Source of the DNA: Streptomyces pacificus
GTDB lineage: Bacteria > Actinomycetota > Actinomycetes > Streptomycetales > Streptomycetaceae
Assembly (NCBI RefSeq): GCF_011766325.1
Contig: NZ_BLLG01000005.1
Location: 1-64,000 of the forward strand
Length of the DNA: 64,000 nt
Reading direction: 5' to 3'
Shown one piece after another: positions 7,824-44,484 of the stretch. Under the pieces are notes generated by a model. It saw nothing but the letters and a program-made list of their open reading frames with translations, was not told the origin of the DNA and ran no database searches. The position numbers and the translations under genes were made by a program. Within the stretch, counting starts at the first letter, position 1. Each line of letters begins with the position of its first letter.

Positions 7824-7883
7824 CCGAGCGGCACGGGCTTTCCGGCCGGTCCGGCGAGGGTGCCTGCCGGGCCGGATCGACGC

Positions 7884-7940: not shown

Positions 7941-7952
7941 TAGGGTGGAGAC

Positions 7953-9071: not shown

Positions 9072-9196
9072 CGCACTATCGTCGCATCAAGGCCGTTCGC
9101 TCAGACGTGGGCCCCTCTGCTCATTTTGTCGACGTACCGATAGAGTCGCAGCACCCTCTTCATCCCGGCCGTCGTCGTACAGAAAGGTGCGCTCCG

Positions 9197-10228
9197 ATGA
9201 CCGATCATCATCTTCCGTCCCCGCTCGAGGTCTCGCCCGAGGCCCCGGACCGCAACCTCGCCCTGGAGCTCGTACGCGTCACCGAGGCCGCCGCCATGGC
9301 CGCCGGACGCTGGGTCGGCCGCGGTGAGAAGAACGGCGCCGACGGCGCGGCCGTCAAGGCCATGCGCACCCTCGTGAGCACCGTGTCGATGAACGGTGTC
9401 GTCGTCATCGGCGAGGGCGAGAAGGACGAGGCCCCGATGCTGTTCAACGGGGAGCGGATCGGCGACGGGACCGGCGCGGAGTGCGACATCGCCGTGGACC
9501 CGATCGACGGCACCACACTCACCGCCAAGGGCATGCCCAACGCGATCGCGGTACTCGCGGCGGCCGACCGGGGCACCATGTTCGACCCGTCCGCGGTGTT
9601 CTACATGGACAAGCTGGTCACCGGCCCCGAGGCCGCCGACTTCGTCGACATCAACGCCCCGGTCTCGGTGAACATCCGCCGGGTCGCCAAGGCGAAGAAC
9701 TCCTCCCCCGAGGACGTCACCGTGGTCGTCCTGGACCGCCCCCGCCACGAAGGCATCGTCAAGGAGATCCGCGAGACGGGCGCGCGCATCAGGTTCATCT
9801 CCGACGGCGACGTCGCGGGCGCGATCATGGCGGTACGCGAGGGCACCGGCGTCGACCTGCTGATGGGCATCGGCGGCACACCCGAGGGCATCATCGCCGC
9901 GTGCGCGATCAAGTGCCTCGGCGGCACCATCCAGGGCAAGCTGTGGCCGAAGGACGAGGAGGAGCGGCAGCGCGCCGTCGACGCCGGACACGACCTGGAC
10001 CGCGTCCTCCTCATGGACGACCTGGTCAGCGGCGACAACGTGTTCTTCGTCGCCACCGGCATCACGGACGGCGAACTGCTGCGCGGGGTGCGCTACCGCT
10101 CCGCGACCGCGACCACCCAGTCACTCGTCATGCGTTCCAAGTCGGGCACGATCCGTCAGATCGACTCGACCCATCGCCTGTCGAAGCTGCGCGCCTACAG
10201 CGCCATCGACTTCGACCGCGCCAAGTAG
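9197..10228 (+). CDS. glpX: Class II fructose-1,6-bisphosphatase
   Basis: GlpX-type fructose bisphosphatase, a metal-dependent gluconeogenic enzyme releasing phosphate from fructose 1,6-bisphosphate in the cytoplasm. The 343-residue protein shows [18 protein letters not shown] (Asp/Glu metal ligands), [20 protein letters not shown] (the D-P-I-D-G-T motif), [31 protein letters not shown] and AATTQS-like substrate-binding segments near the end ([11 protein letters not shown]). The ATG at 9197 is preceded by GAAAGG at good distance; the open frame reaches back to 9107 but the added stretch is not conserved. A strong hairpin follows the gene. Confidence 0.96.
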
Positions 10229-10269
10229 GGCGCGGGCCGCGACCGCGGCACCGGGGTGCCCGGTCACCG

Positions 10270-10338
10270 GCATCCGGGCACACACGGACGGGGGCGCCCC
10301 ATGTGCGGTGGGGCGCCCCCGTCCGTGTGCCGGGATGC
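10270..10338. terminator. Long bidirectional terminator hairpin
   Basis: Left arm 10270-10300 and right arm 10310-10338 pair almost perfectly, with one two-base bulge and one mismatch, around a nine-base loop. The inner stem is CGGACGGGGGCGCCCC and its complement. Located between the convergent glpX and WhiB genes, it is the strongest terminator-like structure in the window. Confidence 0.85.
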
Positions 10339-10349
10339 CGCGGTCTCCG

Positions 10350-10700
10350 TCAGGCCGCCGAGGGCGCCTTTTTGATCTCCGTCTCGCGCCGGCGGCGACG
10401 GGCCAGCACCACGCGGCGCTCGGCCGCGGTGAGCCCGCCCCACACGCCGTAGGGCTCGGGCTGGAGCAGCGCGTGCTCGCGGCACTCGACCATGACGGGG
10501 CAGCGGGCGCAGACCCGCTTGGCCGCGTCCTCGCGCGAGAGCCGCGCCGCCGTCGGTTCCTTGGAGGGCGCGAAGAACAGTCCGGCTTCGTCCCGGCGGC
10601 ACACCGCCTCCGTGTGCCAGGGCGCGTCCTGGTCTTCCCGAGCGGCTGAACGCTGGGGAGGAACGGCTACCTGCAGGGGCTGATGCGGCAGTTGCAGCAC
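10350..10700 (-). CDS. wblI: WhiB family iron-sulfur regulator (WblI-like)
   Basis: A 116-residue WhiB-like protein. These small actinobacterial regulators carry a [4Fe-4S] or [4Fe-4S]/NO-responsive cluster and act with the principal sigma factor. The four cluster cysteines are in HTEAVCRRDEAG (about residue 33) and KRVCARCPVMVECREHAL (C-x-x-C-x5-C). The G-V-W-G-G turn (PYGVWGGLTAAERRVVL) precedes an Arg-rich DNA-binding tail, RRRRRETEIKK. GTG at 10700 has AGGAG six bases upstream. The assignment to WblI rests on memory of a similar glpX neighbour in S. coelicolor; the WhiB family call is secure. Confidence 0.9.
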   Translation of the reverse strand: MLQLPHQPLQVAVPPQRSAAREDQDAPWHTEAVCRRDEAGLFFAPSKEPTAARLSREDAAKRVCARCPVMVECREHALLQPEPYGVWGGLTAAERRVVLARRRRRETEIKKAPSAA

Positions 10701-16422: not shown

Positions 16423-18302
16423 CGGAGCATCCCACCTCCCACGAAGGCCGGCAGCCTGTCGCCGCCCGGTCGCAGGAGCGCACCCGGCCGCGGCAGGAGG
16501 CCGCCGCCCATGCCTCCCGGCCGGCAGCGGCCGCCGCGGTCCCGCCGCAGCCGCCCGCACCCCCGTCCCCGCCGGGGGACGCAGCGGGGCCGGCCCGCCG
16601 CGACGGCGACCGGCTGCGGTTCGTCGGTGCGGCCACCCGGAGGATCGCCCGCGGAATAGACCTGGACGAGATCGTGCTCGGGCTGTGCCGGGCCACCGTC
16701 CCCACGTTCTCCGACGCCATCCTCGTGTATCTGCGGGACCCGCTGCCGGTGGGCGACGAGCGGCCCGTCGAGCCGTTCGTGCTGCGACTGCGGCGGACCG
16801 ACCGGCTCCGTTTAGCGGACGAGGACACCGAGAGCGCCCTGCTGGGCGGTTTCCCGGTGCCGGTGCTCGGCGCGCCGGCCGAGGTCGCGCCGGCCGCCGA
16901 GCTGTGCGAGGTGATCGCGGGCGGCGCGCTGGCCGAGGTCCTGCGCGGCGTGCGTCCCGTCTTCGGCGACTCGGCCGCCGCCCGTGCGGCGCTGCCCGAG
17001 CTGCTGGGCGACGGCAGGACCCTGCCCGCGGGGCACCGGTCGGTCCTGGCACCGCTGCGGGGCCGTCGCCGGGTCACCGGCGCCGCGATCTTCCTGCGCC
17101 GTCCCGACCGGCCCGCCTTCGAGCCGGACGACCTGCTGGTGGCCGCCCAGCTGGCGACGCACACCGCGCTGGGCATCGACAAGGCGGTCCTGTACGGCCG
17201 CGAGGCCTACATCGCGGACGAGCTGCAGCGCACGATGCTGCCCGAGGGGCTGCCGCAGCCGACCGGTGTACGGCTGGCCTCCCGCTATCTCCCGGCCGCG
17301 GAGACCGCGCGGGTCGGCGGCGACTGGTACGACGCCATCCCGCTGCCCGGCAGCCGGGTCGCGCTGGTCGTCGGCGACGTCATGGGCCACTCCATGACAT
17401 CGGCCGCGATCATGGGCCAGCTGCGGACGACGGCCCAGACCCTGGCCGGTCTCGACCTGCCGCCGCAGGAGGTGCTGCACCATCTCGACGAACAGGCCCA
17501 GCGGCTCGGCACCGACCGCATGGCGACCTGCCTGTACGCGGTCTACGACCCGGTCGCGCACCGCATCACCATCGCCAACGCCGGCCATCCGCCACCGGTG
17601 CTGCTGCACCTCGGCGGTCGGGCGGAGGTCCTGCGGGTGCCGCCGGGCGCTCCCATCGGCGTGGGCGGGGTGGACTTCGAGGCCGTGGAGCTGGACGCGC
17701 CCGCCGGGGCCACCCTGCTCCTCTACACCGACGGGCTGGTGGAGTCGCGGCTGCGGGACGTGTGGACCGGCATCGAGCAGCTGAGGGAGCGGCTGGCCGC
17801 GACGGCGCAGCTCACCGGCTCCGACCACTCGCCGCCGCTGGAGGCGCTCTGCGACGACGTGCTGGACATGCTGGGCCCGGGTGACCGGGACGACGACATC
17901 GCCCTGCTCGCGGCCCGTTTCGACGGGATCGCACCGAGTGACGTCGCCTACTGGTTCCTGGAGCCGGAGGACTCCGCCCCGGGTCGGGCCCGCCGGCTGG
18001 CCCGCAGGGCACTGGCGCGCTGGGGCATGGAGGAGCTGTCCGACTCGGTGGAGCTGCTGGTCAGCGAGGTGGTGACCAATGCGGTGCGGTACGCCGAGCG
18101 ACCGGTGACGCTGCGGCTGCTGCGCACCGACATGCTGCGCTGCGAGGTCGGCGACGACTCGCCGCAGCTGCCGCGCCAGCGGCGGGCCAGGGACACGGAC
18201 GAGGGCGGCCGCGGGCTGTTCCTGGTGAACCGGCTGGCCAGACGGTGGGGGGCGACCCGGCTGTCCACCGGCAAGGTCGTCTGGTTCGAGCTGGTCATCT
18301 GA
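16419..18302 (+). CDS. GAF-SpoIIE phosphatase-HATPase signalling protein
   Basis: A 627-residue regulator of the partner-switching type. A Pro/Ala-rich N-terminus is followed by a GAF-like sensor domain (about residues 75-270, DRLRFVGAATRRIARGIDLD onward). A PP2C/SpoIIE serine phosphatase domain follows, with ELQRTMLPEGLPQ, RVGGDWYDAIPL and VVGDVMGHSMTSAAIMGQLR supplying metal-binding Asp residues. The last domain is an RsbW-like HATPase_c_2 (about 510-627, LLVSEVVTNAVRYA and DEGGRGLFLVNRLARRWG), an anti-sigma-type kinase. It could both phosphorylate and dephosphorylate anti-sigma antagonists. The start at GTG 16419 overlaps the upstream small ORF; an in-frame ATG at 16350 is an alternative. 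Confidence 0.9.
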   Translation: MTEHPTSHEGRQPVAARSQERTRPRQEAAAHASRPAAAAAVPPQPPAPPSPPGDAAGPARRDGDRLRFVGAATRRIARGIDLDEIVLGLCRATVPTFSDAILVYLRDPLPVGDERPVEPFVLRLRRTDRLRLADEDTESALLGGFPVPVLGAPAEVAPAAELCEVIAGGALAEVLRGVRPVFGDSAAARAALPELLGDGRTLPAGHRSVLAPLRGRRRVTGAAIFLRRPDRPAFEPDDLLVAAQLATHTALGIDKAVLYGREAYIADELQRTMLPEGLPQPTGVRLASRYLPAAETARVGGDWYDAIPLPGSRVALVVGDVMGHSMTSAAIMGQLRTTAQTLAGLDLPPQEVLHHLDEQAQRLGTDRMATCLYAVYDPVAHRITIANAGHPPPVLLHLGGRAEVLRVPPGAPIGVGGVDFEAVELDAPAGATLLLYTDGLVESRLRDVWTGIEQLRERLAATAQLTGSDHSPPLEALCDDVLDMLGPGDRDDDIALLAARFDGIAPSDVAYWFLEPEDSAPGRARRLARRALARWGMEELSDSVELLVSEVVTNAVRYAERPVTLRLLRTDMLRCEVGDDSPQLPRQRRARDTDEGGRGLFLVNRLARRWGATRLSTGKVVWFELVI

Positions 18303-18368
18303 GAGCCGCCCGGCGGCCCGGCCGCCCGGCAGACGACCGGTGGCGCGGCCCTCCGGGGGCCGTCCGGA

Positions 18369-18448
18369 GGCCCGGCCGTCTGAAGGCCCGGCCGTCTGAA
18401 GGCCCGGCCGCCTGAAGGCCCGGCCGTCCGGAGGCCCGGCCGCCTGAA
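18369..18448. repeat. Five tandem copies of a 16-bp unit
   Basis: The unit GGCCCGGCCGTCTGAA occurs five times with single-base or short variation (CCTGAA, TCCGGA endings), with partial copies on both sides. It lies between the SpoIIE-type gene and katA. Each unit contains GGCCCGGCC, so RNA from this region could fold into alternative hairpins and may serve as a terminator. Confidence 0.85.
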
Positions 18449-18586
18449 GGCCGGTCCGGGGCCGCCAGCCATCCCGACCGGGGCGAAAGCCGGATCGAGT
18501 CCAAAGTTGCCGTCTTCGCATGCGAGGAGTTGACTGGGGCACACGGCCGATGCGACCACATTCCCTCGATGAACGGGAGGACGCTC

Positions 18587-24264: not shown

Positions 24265-25353
24265 TCACTCCACCGCCGCCCCGGCCGGCGACCCCGGTTC
24301 GGCCGCCGGGACGCCGCCCGGTTTCACCGCCGGTACGACCGGTACGACCGGTACCACCGCCGGTAGGCCCGGTTCCCCCCGAAGGGGTCCCGCCGCGGAG
24401 CGTCCGCCGTCGTGGAGCACGCGCACCGGAAGGTCCTGGAGTACCTCCCGGAGCGCGCCCGCGAACTGCTCGAACTCCCCCTGGCGGGCGGCCCCCGAGC
24501 GCATCGCCAGGGCGACCCGGCGCGATGGGGCCGGGTCCGCGAAGTAGCCGGTGGCCAGGGCCGGATTACGGCCGGCCTCGACCTGGACGGCGGTGTGCGG
24601 CAGGAGGGTGACCCCCAGTCCGCCCGCCACCAGCTGGACCAGGGTGGACAGTCCGGCGGCGGTAGTGGTGACCGGCGCCCCGTCCGTGCGGCCCGCCTCC
24701 CGGCAGATGTCGAGGGCCTGGTCGCGCAGGCAGTGCCCCTCGTCGAGCAGCAGCAGCGGAAGCTCCCTGAGCGCGTCGCGCGGAATGCCCTCGCGGCCGC
24801 CGAGCCAGTGGCCGCCGTACGTGACCAGCACGAAGTCCTCGTCGAAGAGCGGCAGTTCGTCCACCCCGGGCACCCCGAGCGGTACGGCGAGGAGCAGCAG
24901 GTCGAGCCGGCCCGCCGCAAGCCCCTCCAGCAGCGACGACGTCTGCTCCTCGTGGACCTGGAGGTCCAGTTCCGGGTAGCGCTCGTGGACCAGCCTCAGC
25001 ACGCTCGGCAGCAGATAGGGGGCGACGGTCGGTATCACCCCGAGCCGCAGTACGCCGGTGAAGGGCGCGCGCACCGCCTCGGCCTCCTCCAGCAGTGCAC
25101 CGACGGCGTCGAGGACCGCCTTGGCGCGGGTCGCGAGCCGCTCGCCGGCAGGCGACAGCAGGACCTTCCGCGTCGTACGCTCCAGCAGCTGGACGCCCAG
25201 CGCCTCCTCCAGCGCCGACACGGCTCCGGACAGGGCGGGCTGGCTCATCCCGATCGCGGCGGCCGCATCCCGGAAGTGCAGATGCTCGGCGACGGCGGCG
25301 AAGGCGCGAAGTTGAGCCAGACTGGGCTGTTTGCCCCGTTTCACCGGATTCAC
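24265..25353 (-). CDS. oxyR: Peroxide-sensing LysR regulator OxyR
   Basis: A 362-residue LysR-type activator. The HTH is SLAQLRAFAAVAEHLHFRDAAA, with SQPALSGAVSALEEALG. The peroxide-sensing cysteines are in DEGHCLRDQALDICREAG at about residues 208 and 217, close to the Cys206/Cys215 pair I recall for S. coelicolor OxyR. The effector domain continues with TTTAAGLSTLVQLVAGGLGV. The C-terminal 45 residues (VVPVVPVVPAV then PAAEPGSPAGAAVE) are a low-complexity extension absent from typical OxyR. The start is placed at GTG 25353; the frame is open to 25413 but that part overlaps the promoter. In other streptomycetes it is divergent from ahpC; here 6.6 kb intervene. Confidence 0.93.
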   Translation of the reverse strand: MNPVKRGKQPSLAQLRAFAAVAEHLHFRDAAAAIGMSQPALSGAVSALEEALGVQLLERTTRKVLLSPAGERLATRAKAVLDAVGALLEEAEAVRAPFTGVLRLGVIPTVAPYLLPSVLRLVHERYPELDLQVHEEQTSSLLEGLAAGRLDLLLLAVPLGVPGVDELPLFDEDFVLVTYGGHWLGGREGIPRDALRELPLLLLDEGHCLRDQALDICREAGRTDGAPVTTTAAGLSTLVQLVAGGLGVTLLPHTAVQVEAGRNPALATGYFADPAPSRRVALAMRSGAARQGEFEQFAGALREVLQDLPVRVLHDGGRSAAGPLRGEPGLPAVVPVVPVVPAVKPGGVPAAEPGSPAGAAVE

Positions 25354-25363
25354 CGCCCTCACT

Positions 25364-25405
25364 GATAACCACCTCCGATCACAGCGGGTCAGTCTAGCCA
25401 TTTCC
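25364..25405. promoter_or_regulatory. OxyR-box-like sequence at oxyR
   Basis: On the + strand, ATAA, CGAT, GGTC and CCAT occur at exact 11-base spacing (four-base half-sites with seven-base gaps), the spacing of the OxyR consensus ATAG-N7-CTAT-N7-ATAG-N7-CTAT. The 42 bases match 28 of 42 positions in the block ahead of ahpC (31911-31952). It lies about 10 bases upstream of the oxyR start, suitable for autoregulation. Confidence 0.45.
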
Positions 25406-25609
25406 GCGATCAATGCACTCTGCGCCAGGGTGGGGTCCCACCCCCCGGAGGCCCCCTGAGCGCCTCAAGAGCGGGAAGCACGACACCACGGCCGTTCACT
25501 TCTGCTCAGGCATCGTGCGGTGCGGAAGGCGCTCGTCGCCGATGTGGTCGAACCCGTACACGAAGGGGACGAGCGCCTACGAGAACCGCAGGCCCTCTCC
25601 TCGCCGCTC

Positions 25610-25790
25610 TCACCCCGGCAGCCTGCCCCCTGCCGCGAACTTCACGAACGATGCCCAGGACGACGGCGGGAGCGCCAAGGTTCCACCGCCGCGGCGCTTC
25701 GTGTCTCGAACTGTCTCGAACCATGACCCGCTCCGGGTCGTTGTCGGCCACCTCGACGCAGCCAGTGAGGCGGAACTATTCAGTCGCCTA
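25610..25790 (-). pseudogene. DUF397 protein, frameshifted remnant
   Basis: Two minus-strand frames together give the DUF397 pattern: CVEVADNDPERVMVRDS in one, then GGGTLALPPSSWASFVKFAAGG in the other. DUF397 proteins (about 60-80 residues) are small partners of XRE regulators in Streptomyces. The frame changes near 25710 and the start is lost at the junction with the transposase fragment, so this copy is dead. A further minus-strand fragment, FVYGFDHIGDERLPHRTMPE, lies just downstream (25508-25585) and was not identified. Confidence 0.55.
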
Positions 25791-25988
25791 CCCGATGGTG
25801 TAGCGGACATGGCGGGCGTGGACGTAGGCCCGCCACCAGGTGCCCACGGACCGTTCCGCGACCTGCAACACCGCAGCCGCCTGCCGGTAACCCTTCACCT
25901 GCCCCGACTCCAACACGGCCACAACCCGCAACCGCACCACTTCCCACCCCGCCGGCGCCACCCGCCGGGGATCCCCGGCCTCAGCCAC
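25788..25988 (-). pseudogene. Transposase N-terminal fragment (HTH, IS630-like)
   Basis: A GTG-started frame of 66 codons reads EVVRLRVVAVLESGQVKGYR, QAAAVLQVAERSVGTWWRAY. This is the helix-turn-helix of transposases of the IS630/winged-helix type. It stops abruptly after RYTIG where DUF397-related sequence begins, so the catalytic domain is missing. A mark of past insertion and deletion at the left side of the inserted block. Confidence 0.5.
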
Positions 25989-26227
25989 ACCCCATCAACG
26001 AACCGGGCAACTCAACAGTCCCGCCTCAATACGCGGAACGCAGGCCAGGTGTGCTCTTTGCTCCCCAGACGGTCGCCGTGGTCAACGAGGTCCGGATTCG
26101 CCCGCCAGGGTGGGGAGATTCAGACAGCCCCATCACCACAGGAGGTCCTGTCCTCGTCCCGCGGTCCGGCCTGGCCTGGCCTGGCCGAGCGTGGGCTCAC
26201 AGGCAGAGCGCCGGATCGAAGGCCCTG

Positions 26228-26968
26228 TCAGCTCGTCGCCTTGACGGGTCGGCAGGTCCGGTGTCGTGTCCAGCAGGCGCCGGAGACCACGGCGCCCACC
26301 ATCACGATCGGCACCACGGGGAGGAGGTACATGAGCTTGTAGTACCCGAACCCGTAGTCGTGGGCATCCAGGTACGCCACCCAGGGGACGCCGACCGCCC
26401 AGCCGAGCGAGGCCGCCGTCGCCAGGATCGCGGGCAGAGACCTGGTGAGGCTCCGTACCGTTGCTTCTCGCGCCGGGTCGAGATGGCGTCGCAGCGCCCT
26501 GGCCACGCTGAGTCGAATCGTGAAGAAGGCGGCGAAGAGGCACACACCCCATCCCGCCCACATCAGGGGAACCCCGGCATTGGAGCAGACTTGTTGCGCC
26601 TGCTGCAGGCTCCCGTCAGACCTGGTCGCCACAGATTCGAAACCGCAGTCGAGTATCCGGGACCAGCCCACCCACCAGAAGGCCATGGCGGCCAGGGCCG
26701 GCAAGACAGCTCCGGTGGCCGCGGCGAGTGCCGTTTCCTTCAGACGCCGGCGCGAGGCCACCAGCCCCCGTTCGACGGCCCAGGAGGCGGCCAGTACTTC
26801 CACATCACCCGCGATATACGACCTGACATCTTGGCCGTCGAGCGCTGCAGCGGTCAGATCGGCAGTCAGTTCCTCGGCCATCTCCGAGGCTGTCCGTTCG
26901 TCGACCCCGAGCCGACGCCAGGTCTTCCGGGCCTGGGAGGTGATGTCCTGGATGACTTGAGCACTCAA
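26228..26968 (-). CDS. Membrane protein coupled to PadR regulator
   Basis: A 246-residue protein. The N-terminal 70 residues (SQARKTWRRLGVDERTASEMAEELTADL) resemble the small helical HAAS-type domain (DUF1700/DUF1048 class) that accompanies PadR regulators. About four membrane helices follow, at roughly residues 83-105, 130-152, 175-197 and 207-232 (AAATGAVLPALAAMAFWWVGW, LMYLLPVVPIVMVGAVVSG). It starts with TTG at 26968, overlapping the TGA of the PadR gene (TTGA). PadR/HAAS pairs often sense membrane or antibiotic stress; the signal here is unknown. Not identified beyond this. Confidence 0.7.
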   Translation of the reverse strand: MSAQVIQDITSQARKTWRRLGVDERTASEMAEELTADLTAAALDGQDVRSYIAGDVEVLAASWAVERGLVASRRRLKETALAAATGAVLPALAAMAFWWVGWSRILDCGFESVATRSDGSLQQAQQVCSNAGVPLMWAGWGVCLFAAFFTIRLSVARALRRHLDPAREATVRSLTRSLPAILATAASLGWAVGVPWVAYLDAHDYGFGYYKLMYLLPVVPIVMVGAVVSGACWTRHRTCRPVKATS

Positions 26969-27318
26969 TGTTCTGATTCCTTGTGTGTGACGGGCGTGAC
27001 TATGGAGCCGACACTCGCGGTGAAACCGCTCCAGTCATGACTCCAGGATCGAAGCAGCTGCGAACCGGCTTCGCTCGGCCTGTAGTAGGTCCGCGCGGGA
27101 CCGCTGTCCCCCGCGCGACGCTCCACCTCGACCAGGCCGCGTTTGCGCAACCGCGCCAGTGCCGGATAGATCGACCCGTCGGCGACGTCCAGACCTGCCT
27201 CACCGAGCCGGACGGTCATCTCGTATCCATAAACCGGGGCCTGCGCCATCAGGGCCAACAGGCACATGTCCAGCACACCGCGAAGCCACTGGGCACGTGG
27301 AACCGACGTCTCCTCCAT
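26965..27318 (-). CDS. PadR family transcriptional regulator
   Basis: A 117-residue PadR-type winged-helix repressor: WLRGVLDMCLLALMAQAP, VYGYEMTVRLGEAGLDV, then DGSIYPALARLRKRGLVEVE and ARTYYRPSEAGSQLLRSW. The recognition helix and the Y-x-L/S-E-A-G motif are intact. The start is the ATG at 27318 because TAAGGT, a -10-like element, ends seven bases upstream, implying a leaderless mRNA. The frame reaches 27339 but those extra codons lie in the promoter. It heads a two-gene operon with the membrane protein and probably represses it. Confidence 0.85.
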   Translation of the reverse strand: MEETSVPRAQWLRGVLDMCLLALMAQAPVYGYEMTVRLGEAGLDVADGSIYPALARLRKRGLVEVERRAGDSGPARTYYRPSEAGSQLLRSWSHDWSGFTASVGSIVTPVTHKESEH

Positions 27319-27325
27319 GGGCAGT

Positions 27326-27355
27326 ACCTTACACAGCAAGATTCATGCACGGCAA
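27326..27355 (-). promoter_or_regulatory. Promoter of the PadR operon
   Basis: On the minus strand, TTGCCG (27350-27355) and TAAGGT (27326-27331) are separated by 18 bp, a good sigma-70-type match. The predicted start point coincides with the ATG at 27318. AGCTAGCT, a short palindrome, lies just upstream of the -35 element and may be an operator. Confidence 0.5.
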
Positions 27356-27480
27356 GCTAGCTATCCGTGGATCGCGATCATGCGTCCCGAGAAACTGCCG
27401 TTCATGATCGCCAAGCGCGGCGAAGTGTCACGCCGGGCCCAGCACCGTGATATAGGGCCTGCCCCGTTTCATCCTCACTC

Positions 27481-28267
27481 CGGGTCGGGGCGGTTCAGTT
27501 CGGCAAGGCGGACGGCGACGGCCCGGCGGGCACCCTGAAGCGCACGATCGAGTGCATCGACCGTGCGGCCGAGCTCCTGGACATATACCGGCAGCGCTTC
27601 GACATCGGGCACGTCCACATGGGGTGGCTCGGCGATCACGTCGAGGGCTTCGTGTCGCAGAACGGCTCGAACACCTGGCGGACCTCGCTGACGCTCACGG
27701 AGCAGATCCGCCTTACCCGGCGCGTCATGTTGCACGGTGCCCTGACGATGGCGCCGCTCGCCTCCCGAGTGTCGATGGCCGCCGTGCCCGGCAACCACGG
27801 CGAGGGCGGTCAGGATCGCAGGCCAAGGGGTGACGCGCTACGACGACTCCCACGACACCGAGTCCCTGATCTCCGTACGCGACGCTCTGGCGCTCGATGC
27901 CGAGCGTTTCGGCCACATCGAGTTCTACGTGCCGGACACCGACGAACTGACCGTGGTTGTCGACTGCTCGGGCACGACCGCGGCTCACGCCCACGGGCAC
28001 CAGTGGAGGCCCGGCCGGCACTTCGACTGGTGGAAGGGGCAAGCCTTCAACAAGGCGTCCGCGATGCACCAGGCCGACCCTCTCCTTGCCGGTCACCTCC
28101 ACCACGAGTTCGTGGACACGGACGGACCGCGCACGTTCATCCAGCCCCCAGCCATGGAGAGCGAATCGACGTGGTGGCGGCACGCGAAGGGCACGACCGG
28201 AGCGCCGGGCCTGGTCGTCGCCGTGACGAAGGACGGCCACACCCCCGTGAAGGAAGTGGTCCGGTGA
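27481..28267 (+). pseudogene. Phage-type metallophosphoesterase, frameshifted
   Basis: Reading first frame 1, then frame 2 after about 27810-27830, gives the calcineurin-like metallophosphoesterase motifs in order: HMGWLGDHVEGF (G-D), MAAVPGNHGE (G-N-H-E), TTAAHAHGHQW, and LLAGHLHHEF (G-H-x-H). Similar proteins are known from Streptomyces phages. The frame change lies between the GNHGE motif and TRYDDSHDTES and needs a net +1 difference. No start codon exists upstream because of an in-frame stop at 27448. The downstream half alone, ATG-less, is open from 27830 to 28267. Its stop overlaps the next gene in GTGA. Confidence 0.6.
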
Positions 28268-28572
28268 GCGGCTCCCACGACTGGGCTCTCCTCGACGACC
28301 CGCAGGTTCAGCGCGTGATCCACGTGGTGGCCCGCAAGTTCGGCACGGAGTACGGGCTCGCCCTGGAGCGGGACGACGCCCGGCAGGAAGCGGCCCTCAT
28401 CGTCGCCGAGAAGGCCGGCGAAGCGCGCGAGATGCTCGCGGCCGGTCCCGGCCTCCTGCACCGCTGGCTGTGTCAGCAGATCCGGAACGCGTGGCTCACG
28501 GACCTCCGCCACCAGTCACGGCACCTGTCCTACGAGGTCGCCCTGAACGGGGCGGCGAGGGGACTCCTGTGA
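28264..28572 (+). CDS. Small phage-type protein, sigma region 2-like
   Basis: A 102-residue protein with GTG start overlapping the preceding stop codon and its own stop overlapping the next GTG. Its sequence, RDDARQEAALIVAEKAGEAR and LLHRWLCQQIRNAWLTDLRH, resembles the region 2 helices of sigma-70 family proteins (the D-x-x-Q-E and W-L-x-x-I-x-N-x-x-x-D-x-x-R patterns). No region 4 is present. This resemblance is from pattern only. Part of a three-gene phage-like cassette. Confidence 0.55.
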   Translation: MSGSHDWALLDDPQVQRVIHVVARKFGTEYGLALERDDARQEAALIVAEKAGEAREMLAAGPGLLHRWLCQQIRNAWLTDLRHQSRHLSYEVALNGAARGLL

Positions 28573-29015
28573 GTGCGTACGATCGCCGAATTGTCGAGCA
28601 CCTCCTTCCGGCCGTGTGGTCCCCAGAGGCCGCGTACGGCTTGCGGAACCCGGCCGCCCCGGACGCGGACATGCCCAAGGGAAGCGTCGACAAGCGGGCC
28701 GCGGACACACTGTTCGCACACCTCGCCGACATCCGCCGAGCCTGGGCGGGCTGTCCTCTCGAACTCGGCGAGCGCCGAGCCCTGTTCCTTCGATTCGCCC
28801 TCGACTGGCCGGACGCTCTGATCGCGGCCCGCGACTCCGTGACCGACCGGGCAGTGCGTTACCGGCTCGAACGCGGAGTCGGCAAGCTCGCGTCCTGGCT
28901 GAACGGGCGCGACTACGTGGATGGGTACGACGATCTGCATCCTCAAGGGGATATCGAGCAGCCACAGCCGGAGTGCATTCCGTGCTGGAGCAGCTCCTTT
29001 GCCCACGCGGTGTGA
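28569..29015 (+). CDS. Small phage-type protein, sigma region 4-like
   Basis: A 148-residue protein starting with GTG in a GTGA overlap. Its C-terminal half, LGERRALFLRFALDWPDALI, then VTDRAVRYRLERGVGKLAS, has the layout of a helix-turn-helix of sigma region 4, a helix ending in a turn followed by a recognition helix. The N-terminal half is unidentified. With the preceding gene it could form a two-part sigma-like factor, but this is inference. No other domain is visible. Confidence 0.55.
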   Translation: MSAYDRRIVEHLLPAVWSPEAAYGLRNPAAPDADMPKGSVDKRAADTLFAHLADIRRAWAGCPLELGERRALFLRFALDWPDALIAARDSVTDRAVRYRLERGVGKLASWLNGRDYVDGYDDLHPQGDIEQPQPECIPCWSSSFAHAV

Positions 29016-29033
29016 GGCGGCAGGATCACCCCC

Positions 29034-30062
29034 ATGCGCATCTTGGTCATGGGTGGTACATGGTTCCTGGGCAGGGAAGTTGTCGCCGAGTCACTGCGCC
29101 GGGGGTGGCGGGTGACGACCTTCACAAGGGGGTTGTCGGGCGAGCCGGTGCCGGGGGTGGAGAGGGTTCACGGTGACCGGACCGTCCCCGCGGACCTGCG
29201 CCTGCTGGCCGCCCACGGCCCATGGGACGCGGTGATCGACACGTCCAGCTCCGAACTGCCCCCGCGCGTCGTTCAACTCTCCGCCAGCGCTCTGAGTGCG
29301 CAGACGGCGCGCTGGGTGCACCTCTCCACCGTGTCCGTCTACGCAGACTGGCCACACAGTGCGTTGACCGAGGAGTCACCGCTTCTGGAATGCCCGGCCG
29401 ACGCCGACGAATCGTACGGGTTCACCGGGCAGGACGGCTCCCCGACCAAATATGGCTTCCAGAAGGCCGGCGGGGAGAAGGCCGTGGTCGAGGCCCTCGG
29501 AGATCGTGCGGTGTTTCTGCGGCCGGGGGTGATCCTAGGGCCTGCTGAGTATGTGGGCAGACTTCCCTGGTGGCTCACTCGTGCTCACCGGGGCGGTCCC
29601 ATCGTCGTTCCCGCTCCGGCTGACCGCCTGATCCAGCCAGTGGACGTGCGTGACGTGGCAGCCTTCGCAGTGGATCAAGCGGCATCGACAGGCGGCGGTG
29701 CCTTCAACATCGCGCATCCGACCGGGATCACCTTCGCGGACTTCGTTCAGGCCTGTCTGGAGGTGACCGGTGGGGCGGGACGCCCTGTGTGGACACAGCC
29801 AGAGGTGCTGGCGGAGTGCGGGGTCAAGCAGTGGACCGAGATGCCCCTCTGGCGTACCCATGCGGGTGTCTGGCTGGTCAATTCGGATCGGGCGGTGGCA
29901 TCTGGCCTCCACTGCCGCCCGCTTCGGGACACGATCGCGGACACGTGGGCCTGGTGGCAGTCGGCGGGCCGCCCTGTGGATCATCCGCGCTGGGCGGACC
30001 ACGGAGTCAGCCCCGAGAAGGAGGCCAAGATCCTCGCTTCCCTCCCGGGGCCGACGGCCTGA
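29034..30062 (+). CDS. NAD-dependent epimerase/dehydratase (extended SDR)
   Basis: A 342-residue oxidoreductase with an N-terminal Rossmann motif VMGGTWFLGREVV (G-G-x-x-F-L-G) and a modified extended-SDR pattern: DAVIDTSS, VHLSTVSVYAD and a Y-x-x-x-K-like segment in SPTKYGFQKAGGEKAVVEAL. RLIQPVDVRDVAAFAVD and AFNIAHPTGITFADF are the substrate-domain regions. Substrate unknown; such proteins act on sugars, nucleotide sugars or RNA-linked reactions in different species. The ATG follows AGGATCA. It is convergent with a broken regulator gene. Confidence 0.85.
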   Translation: MRILVMGGTWFLGREVVAESLRRGWRVTTFTRGLSGEPVPGVERVHGDRTVPADLRLLAAHGPWDAVIDTSSSELPPRVVQLSASALSAQTARWVHLSTVSVYADWPHSALTEESPLLECPADADESYGFTGQDGSPTKYGFQKAGGEKAVVEALGDRAVFLRPGVILGPAEYVGRLPWWLTRAHRGGPIVVPAPADRLIQPVDVRDVAAFAVDQAASTGGGAFNIAHPTGITFADFVQACLEVTGGAGRPVWTQPEVLAECGVKQWTEMPLWRTHAGVWLVNSDRAVASGLHCRPLRDTIADTWAWWQSAGRPVDHPRWADHGVSPEKEAKILASLPGPTA

Positions 30063-30069
30063 ACTGAAG

Positions 30070-30735
30070 TCAGGCTTCCAGCGCTGCCAGGGGTCCGGAC
30101 CCGGTTCCGAGCTGGTGGCCAGCGGACAGACGGGTGAAGTCCTCGATCCGTTCTCCGAGCTCGTTGGCCAGTGCCGCTCCCTGGTAGCGCTGCATCGTCA
30201 GGGCGCGGCGCACCCTGGCCGTGCGCACGAGAAGACCTGTCGTCCTCTGGGCCTGCGGTACCTCCCACAGGGGTTCGAGGGCAGCGTGCGCGCCATCCAG
30301 GTCACCGCGCAGCAAGCGTGCGGCAGCCATGTCGGCCGAGGCGCCGCCGACCACTCGCGGCGACCGCCGAGCAGCCGGGCGACTTCCCGCCAGCTCCAGG
30401 GCACGACTGGCTTCGACTTCGGCTCGCTCGCCATCCCCGAGAAGGAGGCAGGTCGAGGCGTTGGACATGGCCTGCCGCTCCCCAGAGAAGGCGAATTCCC
30501 CGGCCACCTCGTCGTGCAACTCGTCGGTGAGACCCTGCCCATGGCTCTCCGTTGCGTCCAGTGCCCGGCCAGCGGAGGTGGCATCACCGAGATAGCCGCA
30601 CGCACGGGCCTCGATCGCCCCCAGGCGTCGGCGGGCGGTGTCGCCGAGCGCGGGTTCCCCAAGTTGCAGCAGCAGACGCCCGAATGCACGGAGTGGCTCA
30701 TCGCCGCGTCGGCCGCCGCCACCGCCGAAGCCACG
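30070..30735 (-). pseudogene. Truncated TPR-like regulator C-terminus
   Basis: From about 30735 leftward the minus-strand frame gives helical repeats typical of the C-terminal half of Streptomyces XRE/TPR regulators: GDTARRRLGAIEARACGYLG, MSNASTCLLLGDGERAEVEA, SRALELAGSRPAARRSPRVV, AAARLLRGDLDGAHAALEPL, ending at 30070. The N-terminal HTH and start codon are missing. At about 30735 the frame runs into sequence antisense to the next gene. Open to 31014 only because of GC bias. Confidence 0.5.
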
Positions 30736-31089
30736 TTGAACGCTGACGTGGTCCCGGTGGACCGCTCCGCCCTCGACCCGGTGGCCTACTACCTCGCCGC
30801 CGTCGACCGGGCCCGCCGCGAACCGGACCCCGCCGCCGTGGCGCGGCTCTCCGCTCTCGCCACCGCCCACGCCAGCGGCTACGGGCTCCTCATCGCCACC
30901 GTCCTCGACCCCGCCGTTCCCCTCGGTGACCATCGAGACCGTGACCTTGGCTACCGGGCCGCCGTCGACCGCCGTCTTCACCGACTTCTGACCGAACTGC
31001 GCATCCCGCACCAACGGATGGGCAACACCCCGGACGACCAGTCCGCCACCATAAAGGCTGCCCTAGCCCTGGCGGAGGCAGGCCGGTGA
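30730..31089 (+). pseudogene. Truncated kinase/AAA-like protein C-terminus
   Basis: About 120 codons, beginning abruptly after 30730, read DRSALDPVAYYLAAVDRARR, GYGLLIATVLDPAVPLGDHR, DRDLGYRAAVDRRLHRLLTEL, to the stop at 31089. I recognise this as the C-terminal part of nucleoside-kinase-like AAA proteins that often precede aldo/keto reductases in Streptomyces. No P-loop or start remains. Stop overlaps the GTG of the downstream gene (GTGA). It abuts the other truncated gene head-on. Confidence 0.45.
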
Positions 31090-31859
31090 CCGGCGGCACT
31101 CGACCGGCCGGAACCCTCGCCATCGCCGGAAAGACCGTGTCTCGGCTGGGTTTCGGCACCATGCGCCTGACTGGCCCCGGCACCTGGGGCGACCCGCCCG
31201 ACACCGACCGCGCCCTACGTCTCCTCCATACCGTCGTGGACGAGGGCATCACCCACCTCGACACTGCCGACGCCTACGGCCCCCACACCGCCGAACACCT
31301 CATCCGCCGCGCCCTGTGGCCGTACCCAGAAGAACTACTGATCGCCACCAAGGTGGGCATGGTCAGACCCGCGCGCAACGTTTGGAAGCCGCTCGGACGG
31401 CCCGAGTTCCTGCGCGCCACAGTCGAGCAGTGCCTCCGCCGGCTGGGCGTGGACCGCCTCGACCTGTGCTACCTCCACCGCGTCGACCCGGCCGTCCCAC
31501 TACCGGAGCAGGTCGGCACGCTCGCCGAGCTCCAGCAGGAAGGGAAGATCGCCCACGTCGGGCTGTCCAAGGTGGCACCAGAGCAGATCGACACCGCGTC
31601 CAGCGTCGTCAAGGTGGCGGCGGTGCAGAACAAGCTGAGCGCGGCCGTGCCCGACGACACCGCCACCGTGGAGCACTGCCGAGTGCGCGGCATCCCGTAC
31701 GTCCCCTACGCGCCGCTGGGTTCTGGTCTCCTCACGCAGGCAGAAGACCTCCGCAAGGCCCTTCGACGGCTACTCGGCCTCGGCGATCATGTGGCCCCCA
31801 TTCCCGGCACGAGTTCGGTCGCGCACCCGCGGGAGCTCCTCCGGGCAACATCCGACTAG
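31086..31859 (+). CDS. Aldo/keto reductase
   Basis: A 257-residue NADPH-dependent oxidoreductase of the AKR fold. The tetrad is visible: Asp and Tyr in HLDTADAYGPHTAEHLI, Lys in ELLIATKVGMVRP, His in LDLCYLHRVDP. VSRLGFGTMRLTGPG is the typical N-terminus and HVAPIPGTSSVAHPRELL the cofactor-binding end. The GTG start overlaps the stop of the truncated upstream gene. The missing middle (about 20-30 residues shorter than most AKRs) is in the region after LLTQAEDL. Substrate unknown. Confidence 0.88.
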   Translation: MTGGTRPAGTLAIAGKTVSRLGFGTMRLTGPGTWGDPPDTDRALRLLHTVVDEGITHLDTADAYGPHTAEHLIRRALWPYPEELLIATKVGMVRPARNVWKPLGRPEFLRATVEQCLRRLGVDRLDLCYLHRVDPAVPLPEQVGTLAELQQEGKIAHVGLSKVAPEQIDTASSVVKVAAVQNKLSAAVPDDTATVEHCRVRGIPYVPYAPLGSGLLTQAEDLRKALRRLLGLGDHVAPIPGTSSVAHPRELLRATSD

Positions 31860-31910
31860 GTACACAGCCTCGGCGACCGGCGGTTTTCAGGGACCGCCGG
31901 TCGTTTGATT

Positions 31911-31952
31911 GATAGCCCCCGCCGATCGCTTTGGTTCGATTGATCGATTTCC
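31911..31952. promoter_or_regulatory. OxyR-box-like sequence ahead of ahpC
   Basis: ATAG (31912), CGAT (31923), GTTC (31934) and CGAT (31945) are spaced exactly 11 bases apart, the OxyR tetranucleotide pattern. The block matches 28 of 42 bases in the oxyR-side sequence at 25364-25405. It lies 65-105 bp before the ahpC start, a normal position for activation. Confidence 0.5.
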
Positions 31953-32016
31953 CTCTCCGATATCCGGCGTGGGAGTCTACGGGACGTCCAGCCCCTCGTA
32001 ACTCTGGAGAAGCACA

Positions 32017-32574
32017 GTGCTGACTGTCGGCGACAAGTTCCCCGCTTGGAAGCTCATGGGCGTGGAGGGCCCCTCTGACGACAAGCTGGAGATCAAGGAG
32101 TACTCTTCGGAGGACTTCAAGAACGGTTGGTCAGTGGTCTTCTTCTGGCCCAAGGACTTCACCTTCGTCTGCCCCACCGAGATCGCGGCGTTCGGCAGGC
32201 TGAACGACGAGTTCGCCGACCGCGACGCCCGGGTCCTCGGCTTCTCCGGCGACTCCGAGTTCGTTCACCACGCCTGGCGCAGGGACCACGCCGACCTGCG
32301 TGACCTGCCCTTCCCGATGATGGCCGACTCCAAGCACGAGCTGATGCGCGCCCTCGGCATCGAGGGCGAGGACGGCTTCGCCCAGCGGGCCGTCTTCATC
32401 GTCGACCCGAACAACGAGATCCAGTTCACCATGGTGACCGCCGGCTCCGTCGGCCGTAACCCCAAGGAGGTCCTGCGGGTCCTCGACGCCCTGCAGACCG
32501 ACGAGCTCTGCCCCTGCAACTGGTCCAAGGGCGAGGACACCCTCGACGCGGGCAAGCTGCTGGCCGGTGAGTGA
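32017..32574 (+). CDS. ahpC: Alkyl hydroperoxide reductase AhpC (peroxiredoxin)
   Basis: A 185-residue 2-Cys peroxiredoxin of the actinobacterial AhpC type, reducing hydrogen and organic peroxides. The peroxidatic Cys is C52 in [15 protein letters not shown]. The resolving cysteines are C165 and C167 in TDELCPCNW, characteristic of AhpC enzymes that use AhpD rather than AhpF. The GTG at 32017 follows TGGAGAAG with a six-base spacer. Stop overlaps a GTG before ahpD, so the two are co-translated. Expected to be under OxyR control. Confidence 0.97.
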
Positions 32575-32576
32575 GC

Positions 32577-33110
32577 ATGGCCCTCGATGAGCTGAAGTCC
32601 GCACTCCCGGACTACGCCAAGGACCTCAAGCTGAACCTCGGTTCGGTGATCGGCAACAGCGACCTCCCGCAGCAGCAGCTGTGGGGCACCGTCCTCGCCT
32701 GCGCGATCGCCTCCCGCTCGCCGATCGTGCTGCGCGAGCTGGAGCCCGAGGCCAGGGCCAACCTGTCCGCCGATGCCTACACCGCCGCCAAGTCGGCCGC
32801 CGCGGTCATGGCGATGAACAACGTCTTCTACCGGACCCGGCACCTGCTGTCGGACCCCGAGTACGGGACGCTGCGCGCCGGTCTGCGGATGAACGTCATC
32901 GGCAACCCGGGCGTCGAGAAGACCGACTTCGAGCTGTGGTCGCTGGCCGTCTCCGCGATCAACGGCTGCGGCCAGTGCCTCGACTCGCACGAGCAGGTGC
33001 TTCGCAAGGCCGGCGTCGAGCGCGATGTCATCCAGGAGGCCTTCAAGATCGCCTCGGTGATCCAGGCCGTCGGGACGACGCTGGACGCGGAGGCCGTGCT
33101 CGCCGGGTAG
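32577..33110 (+). CDS. ahpD: Alkyl hydroperoxide reductase AhpD
   Basis: A 177-residue AhpD protein, the thiol-disulfide partner that links AhpC to dihydrolipoamide through the lipoyl succinyltransferase system. The active-site pair is [16 protein letters not shown]131-x-x-C134 with His138, and Glu119 in the preceding helix. [20 protein letters not shown] is the typical start; a GTG six bases upstream (32571) overlaps the ahpC stop and may be used. The carboxymuconolactone decarboxylase-like fold spans the whole protein. Confidence 0.97.
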
Positions 33111-33145
33111 CGATGTCCCGGCCGTTCGGCCGGACCCCGCACAGA

Positions 33146-33178
33146 GCGCCCCGCACGGCACGCAGCCGGGCGGGGCGC
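33146..33178 (+). terminator. Hairpin after ahpCD
   Basis: GCGCCCCGC (33146-33154) pairs with GCGGGGCGC (33170-33178) around a 15-base loop, 36 bp after the ahpD stop. No T-run. Confidence 0.55.
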
Positions 33179-33338
33179 CGCTCTTCCCCCGCCGGGCGGG
33201 ACCTCCCCGCCGCCGCGGGGGGTCCGGCGCCCAGCCCGCGCCTCGTGCCGCGCCGGGCGGGGTTCGCCCGCGGGGAAGCGGCGCGGCGCGGCTTTTGGTG
33301 CGGCGTGGTCGGCGCGGCATCCGGTGCGGTGCGGCGCG

Positions 33339-42810: not shown

Positions 42811-42911
42811 TTCGCCCTCGCCGACTGCGGTCCGTGCCCACTGAGGGCCCGCGAACGCCGGGGCTTTCTGCAAGGGTCCCGGTAAGCGGGCAGGCACTCG
42901 CCGCACACCGC

Positions 42912-43949
42912 TCAGCCGGAGGTGAGCCCTCCGAGCAGCAGCCCGAGCAGCGCGCCCGAGACCATGAACGGCCCGAACGGGATGGCCGTACGGCGCCCCG
43001 CCCCGCGGAGGAGGACGAGCCCGAGCCCGTACACCGCGCCGAGCAGGAACCCCGCGAAGGCCCCCACGAAGAGGACCTGCCAGCCGTACCAGCCGAGCGC
43101 CACGCCGAGCGACAGGGCCAGCTTCACATCGCCGAAGCCCATGCCGTTCGGATTGACGAGGAAGAGCACGAGGTACCCGGCACCCAGCACGGGCCCGCCG
43201 AGCAGCGCCGTCGTCCATGACCCGCCGGCGCCGGGGAGCACTGCCGCGCCGCCCAGCAGTACGGCCGCCGCGGCGGCGAGCGGCAGAGTCAGCTGGTCCG
43301 GAAGCCGGTGGACGTTGCGGTCGACCAGGGCGAGCAGGACGGCGAAGGGCACGAGCAGCAGCCATACCGCCAGTTCCGGCCTGGGCCCGACGGCCGCGGC
43401 GAGTGCCGCACAGGAGACCGCGGTGGCCGCAGGTACGAGCGACGAGCAGCGGTAGGCGGCGGCACAGCGGACATCGGCGTCCTCGGGCCGGTCCACACCG
43501 CACGGCCCCGCCACAGCACCCGACACGTCCGCAACCGCCGACCCGGCCGCACCATCCGGCACCTCAGCCCCGGCTCGACCACCCGGCACGTCCGCACCGC
43601 ACGGCCCCGCCACACCGCGCGGCCCCGCCACAGCACCCGACACGTCCGCAACCGCGGACCCGGCCGCACCATCCCTCGCCCGCGAGTCGGACCCTTCCCG
43701 CGAGTCGGACCCTGCCGCCCCGGCGGACGCGACCGCGGGCCGCGCGGGCACGGCAGGCACGCAGCGCGGGCAGCGCGCGGGCCCCAGCCAGCCGCGCGCG
43801 GGACCGGTGAGAGGATGCCCGGCAGGACACGCGCTCCGCCACGCCGCCCCCGGCTCGACGGACATCCGATAGGCGGGGCGCGGCACGAGCACCCCCACCG
43901 CGGTCCCCCACACGGCGGCGGCGATCAGCGTCACGTACGCGTACTCCAC
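42912..43949 (-). CDS. Prepilin peptidase (A24 family)
   Basis: A 345-residue membrane aspartic protease, probably for cleaving Tad/Flp-type prepilins. The N-terminal part has a Cys-rich segment (SACPAGHPLTGPARGWLGPA, then RCPRC) as in bifunctional TadV/PilD enzymes. A Gly/Ala/Asp-rich insertion follows (about residues 65-155), made partly of two 65-bp repeats. The catalytic Asp residues are in LVDRNVHRLPDQLTLPL and MGFGDVKLALSLGVALGW. About seven membrane helices. Without the insertion it would be about 255 residues, the usual size. The pilus operon begins 3.6 kb upstream. Confidence 0.88.
   Translation of the reverse strand: MEYAYVTLIAAAVWGTAVGVLVPRPAYRMSVEPGAAWRSACPAGHPLTGPARGWLGPARCPRCVPAVPARPAVASAGAAGSDSREGSDSRARDGAAGSAVADVSGAVAGPRGVAGPCGADVPGGRAGAEVPDGAAGSAVADVSGAVAGPCGVDRPEDADVRCAAAYRCSSLVPAATAVSCAALAAAVGPRPELAVWLLLVPFAVLLALVDRNVHRLPDQLTLPLAAAAAVLLGGAAVLPGAGGSWTTALLGGPVLGAGYLVLFLVNPNGMGFGDVKLALSLGVALGWYGWQVLFVGAFAGFLLGAVYGLGLVLLRGAGRRTAIPFGPFMVSGALLGLLLGGLTSG
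43493..43674. repeat. Two 65-bp direct repeats inside the prepilin peptidase gene
   Basis: Copies at 43493-43557 and 43610-43674 differ at only two of 65 bases, 117 bp apart. In the protein they encode the repeated segment DGAAGSAVADVSGAVAGP. Recombination between them would delete 117 bp, an in-frame loss of 39 codons. Confidence 0.9.
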
Positions 43950-44112
43950 GGTCCGACCCTAGGGTCGGGGAGACGGAGGGTCATGGGCCCACGGGCCCAC
44001 TCCCGGCAGTCCGGATCCGCTCTCGGCACCCCGGGCCCGCTCTCGGCAGCCCTGGGCCCGGCCCGGCAGTTCGGGACCCATCCCGGCCCGACTCCCGCTA
44101 CGGTCCTGCCCC

Positions 44113-44484
44113 ATGGGCGCATGGCAGGACGGCAATGGCACGCTGACGGTCCCCGGCCGGGCTGATCCGGTCGATCTCCTGATCGCCGCGTCGTATGGTG
44201 CGCGCTACCGCGGTCTCCTCGGCCGAGACGGCCTGCACGGCGCGCTCATGCTGACACCCTGCGCGAGCGTGCACACCTTCCGGATGCGCTTCGCCATCGA
44301 CGTGGCCTATCTCGACAAGGAGTTGCGCGTCCTGGATGTCCGCACGATGCGCCCCGGCCGACTCGGGATACCGAGACCTCGCAGCCGCCATGTCCTGGAG
44401 GCGGAGGCGGGCGCGATGGCGCGATGGGGCGTACGACCGGGGATCCGGCTCACGATCGGGGCGGGGCGGCGCCCGGCAGCCTGA
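44113..44484 (+). CDS. DUF192 family protein
   Basis: A 123-residue protein matching DUF192, a small beta-rich domain found in bacteria and archaea with unknown function. Typical elements: SYGARYRGLLGRDGLHGALML, TPCASVHTFRMRFAIDVAYL, EAEAGAMARWGVRPGIRLTI. There is no signal peptide, unlike many DUF192 proteins. ATG at 44113 follows CTGCCCC with poor ribosome-binding sequence. It is divergent from the prepilin peptidase gene, and many streptomycetes have these two next to each other. Confidence 0.85.
   Translation: MGAWQDGNGTLTVPGRADPVDLLIAASYGARYRGLLGRDGLHGALMLTPCASVHTFRMRFAIDVAYLDKELRVLDVRTMRPGRLGIPRPRSRHVLEAEAGAMARWGVRPGIRLTIGAGRRPAA

Follow-up and report, generated by a model that had tools for sequence, protein, structure and literature searches.

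In a 64,000-nucleotide stretch of Streptomyces pacificus DNA (positions 1 to 64,000 of contig NZ_BLLG01000005.1, RefSeq assembly GCF_011766325.1; hereafter referred to as the window), oxyR, which encodes a LysR-family regulator, and the peroxiredoxin gene ahpC lie on either side of an inserted block of genes and gene fragments. oxyR occupies positions 24268 to 25362 on the reverse strand (stop codon at 24265 to 24267), and ahpC and ahpD occupy positions 32017 to 33110 on the forward strand, leaving about 6.65 kilobases (kb) between them. The insert has a G+C content of 68.2%, against 71.7% in its surroundings, and an operator-like block stands at each of its sides. Here we analyse the origin of this block (positions 25455 to about 32142), which is very probably the remnant of a decayed prophage that inserted within ahpC and replaced the start and operator of the gene.

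The oxyR product contains the Pfam domains HTH_1 and LysR_substrate, with the LysR domain above the cut-off. Its best NCBIfam model is OxyR (PRK11151), with a score under the curated cut-off, and it shares 92.5% amino acid identity with its counterpart from S. wuyuanensis (locus L039) over residues 1 to 320. The ahpC product is above the cut-off for Pfam AhpC-TSA and under the curated cut-off for NCBIfam AhpC (TIGR03137), and that of ahpD (positions 32571 to 33110, forward strand) is above the cut-off for TIGR00777 and 97% identical in amino acids to that of S. wuyuanensis.

Using the window OxyR as the query, we collected 109 loci (80 named, and 29 of 243 other genomes with an OxyR match). 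In 105 of the 109, oxyR and ahpC are divergent neighbours with match starts at most 240 base pairs (bp) apart, a count that is not an unbiased frequency, as these loci are the best OxyR matches and some probably represent one species twice (the L010 and L039 junctions are identical, and the L077 and G029 integrases are the same). The other four loci are split, with match starts 1285 to 2023 bp apart. The intact junctions are strongly conserved (TGATA...CGATCA...AGTGTAGCTATTTC...GATCAATG), and the native oxyR–ahpC junction is said, in work attributed to Hahn et al. in 2002, to be an OxyR target in S. coelicolor. The closest relatives found (L039, L010, L011 and L012) carry no insertion; S. wuyuanensis, the nearest named relative, has an intact junction. 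This comparison with related Streptomyces bears out the original prediction for this locus, made from sequence alone, that adjacent, divergent genes are the usual state and that the block is inserted.

Two 42-bp blocks, at positions 25364 to 25405 next to oxyR and 31911 to 31952 ahead of ahpC, agree at 28 of 42 positions, gap-free and in the same orientation. No other 42-mer on either strand of the window has more than 24 matches to the left block, and none of 2,000 dinucleotide shuffles of positions 31860 to 32016 reached 28 matches (mean maximum, 18.5). In a scan of both strands of the window with a weight matrix built from 92 distinct intact junctions of other genomes, out of the 105, position 25363 ranked first (66.6) and 31910 second (−9.3), followed by a third site at −50.6; the score of the right operator (31910 to 31962) was reached by none of 300 shuffles. 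The core TGAT-N11-ATC-N19-ATTT occurs at exactly two places in the 6,713,203-base genome, both of them these blocks, and its backward control at none; as the pattern was composed after both sites were known, this genome-wide count is not an independent test. Chance similarity of the blocks was rejected on the shuffles and the genome-wide core pattern. The gene separation, its coordinates, the 28-of-42 match and the operator-like block on each side were all foreseen by the original prediction. Its further claim of four-base motifs at exact 11-base spacing in both blocks stands loosely: at 11-base steps the left block reads ATAA/CGAT/GGTC/CCAT and the right block ATAG/CGAT/GTTC/CGAT, with one of the four exactly shared.

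Insertion borders and the mosaic ahpC gene

On the left, the window shares 89% DNA identity with S. wuyuanensis over positions 24404 to 25454 (blastn), where the native homology stops. Outside oxyR, this stretch holds the host's native, putatively OxyR-type operator (25363 to 25415), which adjoins oxyR and includes the left block, and the remainder of the native junction (25416 to 25454, forward strand), a relic of the old ahpC promoter recognized by pairwise alignment with S. wuyuanensis. On the right, homology to S. wuyuanensis resumes at 94% DNA identity over positions 32136 to 33179, starting within ahpC.

The ahpC gene is a mosaic. Its DNA is 57% identical to that of S. wuyuanensis before the conserved WPKDFTF stretch and 96% identical from there on, and the part before this stretch is 88% identical to the element end in genome G752, 84% to that in genome G676 (both elements are described below) and 86% to the ahpC start of S. 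buecherae. The homology to the ahpC 5′ end in G752 stops at position 32142, and that to the relatives begins at 32136; this interval (32136 to 32142, forward strand), containing the Phe codon two before the Trp of the conserved stretch, is the presumed crossover at the right attachment site (attR). From left to right, the right border thus comprises the putative element-borne OxyR-type operator (31910 to 31962), the putative element-borne ahpC promoter and leader (31963 to 32016, forward strand), the element-borne 5′ codons of ahpC (32017 to 32139, forward strand) and the native 3′ part (32143 to 32574, forward strand), which is in frame with the foreign start. Because the start is foreign and the remainder native, the insertion ends inside ahpC, near codon 42, and not ahead of the gene as originally predicted. 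The right block is best read as having arrived with the mobile element, together with the promoter and the first ~42 ahpC codons.

The reading frame of ahpC is whole, and its conserved active-site stretch is intact. The codons of the new start differ from those of G676 by 14 synonymous and 2 replacement changes, and from those of G752 by 8 and 5, respectively; the G676 pair clearly suggests selection on the protein.

A foreign source was first suggested by a search of 392 Streptomyces genomes (that of S. pacificus included) with positions 31860 to 32140, which yielded 205 genomes with a match at E ≤ 0.001. Among the matches listed, those in other genomes comprise the coding start plus at most 13 bases before it. 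The promoter and leader were also compared with 12 other separated ahpC copies in assigning them to the element. An AhpC-start search across the class (296 genomes, 82 with a match, that of S. pacificus again included) gave a best identity of 60%, with the donor not among these matches, and donors were identified through an integrase search instead. The genome samples behind the OxyR, ahpC-start and both integrase searches overlap.

Integrase elements at ahpC in other genomes

Among the four split loci, L077 and L044 have a serine recombinase gene between oxyR and ahpC, the element integrases being assigned to this class by their Resolvase and Recombinase Pfam domains. The L077 integrase, searched against 291 Streptomyces genomes, matched in 27 at E ≤ 1e-60. 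In the four with an integrase at least 50% identical to it (G029, G289, G097 and G138), the gene lies between oxyR and ahpC; in G138 a contig break divides the gene, oxyR lying 4.5 kb from it on one contig and ahpC being on the second. When 297 genomes of the family were searched with the G289 integrase, five more came up at E ≤ 1e-130 and 52–68% identity (G874, G696, G688, G752 and G676), again with the gene between oxyR and ahpC in all five; two other genera of the family are represented among them, by G676, G696, G688 and G752. Across these nine genomes, with integrases at least 50% identical to the query, the position is always the same, at 0.1 to 4.5 kb from oxyR (about 3.8 kb in G696, where oxyR is partly within the stretch compared).

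Each of the nine has a single AhpC match (E ≤ 1e-50 to the G676 protein), located beyond the element as seen from oxyR (in G138, on the second contig), where a new promoter and new 5′ codons are joined to the native coding sequence. In six of them (G289, G097, G676, G696, G688 and G752), a truncated native ahpC start of 41 to 46 codons is found on the oxyR side, ahead of the integrase gene; it was not seen in G874, G029 and G138. The element border lies at the Phe codon just before the WPKD stretch, and the sequence shared by attR and the left attachment site (attL), as determined by eye, is GTGTTCTTC in G289, GTCTTCGCCTG in G097, GTGGTCTTCTTCTG in G676 and CTTCGCGTGGCCGAAGGAC in G752.

The other 23 of the 27 genomes have integrases only 34–37% identical to that of L077, and one of these, G108, had no oxyR or ahpC in the 15 kb examined; we therefore do not claim use of ahpC for this wider group. 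No close integrase was found among phages (best, 28% identity), viral contigs (none) or plasmids (none at E ≤ 1e-60), and an AhpC search of phage records gave only matches of less than 60% identity.

The element of G752 is a 51.2-kb prophage with genes for a terminase, head protease, major head protein, tape measure protein and exonuclease. Its terminase is 85–86% identical to those of the Streptomyces phages Urza, Itza, VieEnRose and Celia (over 502 residues for Urza and Celia). The prophage also carries a ribonucleotide reductase gene (L208, positions 7799 to 10402). The element of G097 has RepSA, FtsK-like and GntR regulator genes, as do actinomycete integrative and conjugative elements (AICEs) of the pSAM2 kind; pSAM2 uses a tyrosine integrase and integrates into a tRNA gene. 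Relatives of the three G097 genes are present in G676, G696 and G688, and by their gene content these four elements are AICE-like. A phosphotransferase-family (APH) gene is cargo by the right end of two of them, in G676 (L203, positions 17355 to 18530) and, as a relative, in G696. The occurrence of related integrases both in a prophage with a terminase like those of ~50-kb Streptomyces phages and in AICE-like elements is a sign that phages and conjugative elements exchange integration modules. Of the phages of about 50 kb, Urza and Celia are close to G752 in terminase and Yosif to the window in exonuclease, whereas their serine integrases are only 26–28% identical to the ahpC-element integrase, so the integration module differs.

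The window block retains pieces of such a prophage. A fragment of a serine integrase gene (25462 to 25565, forward strand; codons about 321 to 354) begins seven bases after the end of the native junction and matches the G752 prophage integrase at 83 of 104 bases (80%, E = 4e-21) and 23 of 34 residues. Further to the right, a phage early-gene cassette (27496 to 28933, forward strand), which according to PHROGs comprises an exonuclease gene (phrog_284), phrog_1340 and most of a sigma-like gene (phrog_3512; 28569 to 29012, forward strand), is collinear with positions 42834 to 44285 of the G752 prophage (72% DNA identity over 1,466 columns). The exonuclease gene is split across two reading frames, and its product is 85.5% identical in amino acids to that of Streptomyces phage Yosif over the part at 27830 to 28264. 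At the right end, positions 32017 to 32142 are 90% identical in DNA to the G752 ahpC start, which ends that element on its right side. The integrase fragment, the cassette and the ahpC start have the same order and strands as in G752. PHROGs confirmed the phage-like cassette of the original prediction, but its collinearity with G752 makes it part of the inserted prophage, not a bystander among mixed genes.

The block is a remnant rather than a prophage, since no head or tail genes were found among the window proteins scanned, nor any match to that part of G752. The loss of attL, which is present in six of the nine integrase genomes, also identifies it as a remnant: no truncated native ahpC start occurs on the oxyR side in the window, where native homology ends at 25454. 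The source genome has no match to the L077 integrase at E ≤ 1e-60 or to the G289 integrase at E ≤ 1e-130.

Between these pieces lie other features. A short helix-turn-helix fragment (25788 to 25985, reverse strand; Pfam HTH_28, E = 0.006, below the cut-off) is a candidate for the transposase remnant of the original prediction, and no DUF397 remnants, also announced there, were present among the window proteins scanned. The supposed PadR pair comprises one PadR-family gene (26965 to 27315, reverse strand; Pfam PadR, 2.4e-16) and a neighbour without an assigned family (26228 to 26968, reverse strand). The G696 element has a relative of the window PadR protein (43% identity over 100 residues), and both genes are probably cargo or else later insertions. 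Next to the phage cassette are an NAD-dependent epimerase gene (29034 to 30062; Pfam Epimerase), unassigned fragments (30073 to 31086) and an aldo/keto reductase gene (31086 to 31859; Pfam Aldo_ket_red). This stretch (29034 to 31859) has no match in the seven elements compared (G289, G097, G676, G696, G688, G752 and G874), and may represent cargo or later insertions.

Operator conservation and alternative explanations

These observations suggest the following mechanism. A temperate relative of the ~50-kb Streptomyces siphophages would have entered ahpC, its serine integrase presumably recombining the element at the Phe codon before the conserved active-site stretch. The insertion would have severed the native promoter and the first ~42 codons from ahpC, for which the element would supply a substitute beside its attachment site, consisting of a promoter with an OxyR-type operator and the beginning of ahpC (start codon and ~42 codons). 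Fused in frame to the native rest, this substitute would let the lysogen retain a whole ahpC, and the new promoter would stay under host OxyR. Deletions thereafter would have taken away the native ahpC start together with most phage genes and the greater part of the integrase gene, leaving one operator serving oxyR and a foreign one serving ahpC.

The part assigned to OxyR can be assessed from 13 separated ahpC copies, namely those of the window, the nine integrase genomes (with HB132 for G029), L044, S. rimosus and Streptomyces sp. CB02923, with all rows kept. Every copy holds an operator-like stretch; 12 of the 13 beat all 300 shuffles, and that of G752 beats 299. Columns A2, T3, A15, T16, C17, C35 and A37 to T40 are retained in all 13. 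Of the oxyR-side CCTCC (GGAGG when read on the oxyR strand, and likely the oxyR ribosome-binding site), the three bases of CCT are retained in only 2, 5 and 2 copies, respectively, and A28 and G29, within the AGTGTAG stretch, in 1 and 3. As the core columns are kept while the oxyR-specific signals are mostly lost, the copies fit retention for the control of ahpC and not of oxyR, and this conservation supports OxyR control of the element-borne ahpC promoters.

Several points weigh against the proposed mechanism. The operator stretches were placed by the best core-motif match (a matrix from natives only gives the same positions), and either way of placing them favours conserved columns; these should in fairness be set against other columns that natives fix to the same degree, such as CCT, A28 and G29. 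The operators of six of the 13 copies (window, G676, G696, G688, G752 and G097) have lower scores than any native junction, and that of G752 is the weakest, with 1 of 300 shuffles as good. The Streptomyces OxyR site at the sgnM promoter, as given in excerpts of PMC10580950, differs and is G+C-rich. The integrase gene of the window is reduced to about 104 bp, the stretches at 26.2 to 27.3 and 29.0 to 31.9 kb have no counterpart in G752, and the assembly is a draft of 120 contigs. Furthermore, S. rimosus and CB02923 have operators on both sides, a native-type ahpC start and no integrase, so that not every split is of the integrase-element kind; their arrangement (loci L049 and L068), in which an Lsr2-type gene separates oxyR from ahpC (recognized by Pfam Lsr2 in CB02923 and by sequence likeness in S. 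rimosus), possibly dates from an earlier event of this kind or has a different origin.

An element may have arrived as described and its operator have since fallen into disuse, leaving ahpC constitutive or silent. The right copy in the window lacks the last GATCAAT half-site, and several element operators score under every native one, as disuse would allow; the core is nevertheless kept in all 13 separated copies while the neighbouring oxyR-specific signals are mostly lost, and ahpC is intact and in frame, which makes this outcome unlikely. Far less probable is that homologous recombination replaced the ahpC start with one of the S. buecherae type and that unrelated insertions followed, with no site-specific integrase involved. 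Such a donor has its attraction in that S. buecherae (L108), G031 and G154 pair a similar ahpC start with a native junction. However, the window start is as close or closer to an integrase element (88%, G752) than to S. buecherae (86%), the window is unlike the S. buecherae junction upstream of the start codon, and an integrase fragment lies at the left border. Tandem duplication of the host oxyR–ahpC junction followed by insertions between the copies, to which the similar, gap-free and equally oriented blocks might otherwise point as two host copies, is scarcely credible and is largely refuted by the mosaic ahpC, because the right copy runs into a foreign start (57% identity, the remainder of the gene having 96%), the blocks enclose integrase and phage fragments in intact-prophage order, and the oxyR ribosome-binding site is not retained on the right. 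The original suggestion that the regulatory region was duplicated or kept on both sides therefore stands as regards the presence of an operator-like block on each side, and fails as regards host duplication, the right block being apparently element-borne.

Junctions of other shapes occur elsewhere. S. buecherae and two further genomes (L120 and L121, one of which is probably the same species) combine a native junction with an element-type ahpC start; the ahpC gene of G031 is 100% identical to that of L108, and G031 is probably the same species. The state of S. buecherae, G031 and G154 could be the scar of element removal by recombination between two ahpC starts. At the left end of the G696 element (L200), an element promoter stands before the native ahpC start, beside the integrase gene, as a reciprocal recombinant. 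The intact junctions of L028, L032 and L090 are longer (217 to 219 bp) and seem to contain an operator-like sequence twice, its second copy in the TGATC form that elements have; they could be the scar of a lost element.

Relation to known integrative elements

The integrases of dusA elements and of SXT are tyrosine recombinases, and a 1999 study by Hochhut and Waldor reportedly found that prfC, too, receives a new promoter and 5′ end from SXT. The elements at ahpC similarly provide the new 5′ end of their target gene and differ in integrase class, having serine recombinase domains. In excerpts of Farrugia et al. 2015 (PMC4482086), dusA islands and prophages are described as entering, like the window element, the 5′ end of a conserved gene and replacing it with element sequence; predicted −10/−35 promoters before and after, and a remnant dusA 5′ end, are also mentioned there. 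Unlike dusA, a tRNA-modification gene, the target here is a peroxiredoxin gene, the integrase is of the serine class and the promoter has an operator resembling that of a host stress regulator. SXT/R391 elements, which unlike the window element are conjugative elements of gammaproteobacteria, likewise have a conserved gene, prfC, as their target and enter it at its 5′ end (excerpts of PMC4344509 and PMC2786100). The Streptomyces phages Samy, phiC31, R4, TG1 and SV1, among others, share the serine integrase class, and the attachment site attB of Samy is inside a protein-coding gene, in its case a radical SAM gene and not ahpC (excerpts of PMC12924846); in the main-text portion of that source no word starts with ahp or peroxi. 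Prophages at a tRNA gene by ahpF in Streptococcus (excerpts of PMC11357604) were set aside as not being at the same site, and a literature search limited to open-licence PMC papers found no description of an ahpC integration site. Integrative elements that replace a 5′ end are thus known, and what appears to be new is the ahpC target, the serine integrase and the apparently host-regulated replacement promoter.

Beyond the window, a broader picture is probable, if less secure than the origin of the block itself. A serine integrase family of Streptomycetaceae phages and AICEs would use the active-site codons of ahpC as its target and carry an OxyR-operated promoter and an ahpC start as a standing 'repair module', which would keep the peroxide defence of the lysogen under host control. 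Repeated integration, decay and loss would leave swapped starts and doubled operators across the genus, with mobile elements driving the evolution of the ahpC N terminus and promoter. For the puzzle of two distant OxyR boxes there is now an explanation open to experiment: a mobile element may enter a conserved defence gene midway and yet leave the host with a whole gene, as it delivers a new gene start and an apparent copy of the operator used by the host regulator. The integrase family, with its apparent attB in ahpC, may be useful as an integration tool that leaves its target gene working, and the account likely explains several split oxyR–ahpC loci and deviant AhpC N termini.

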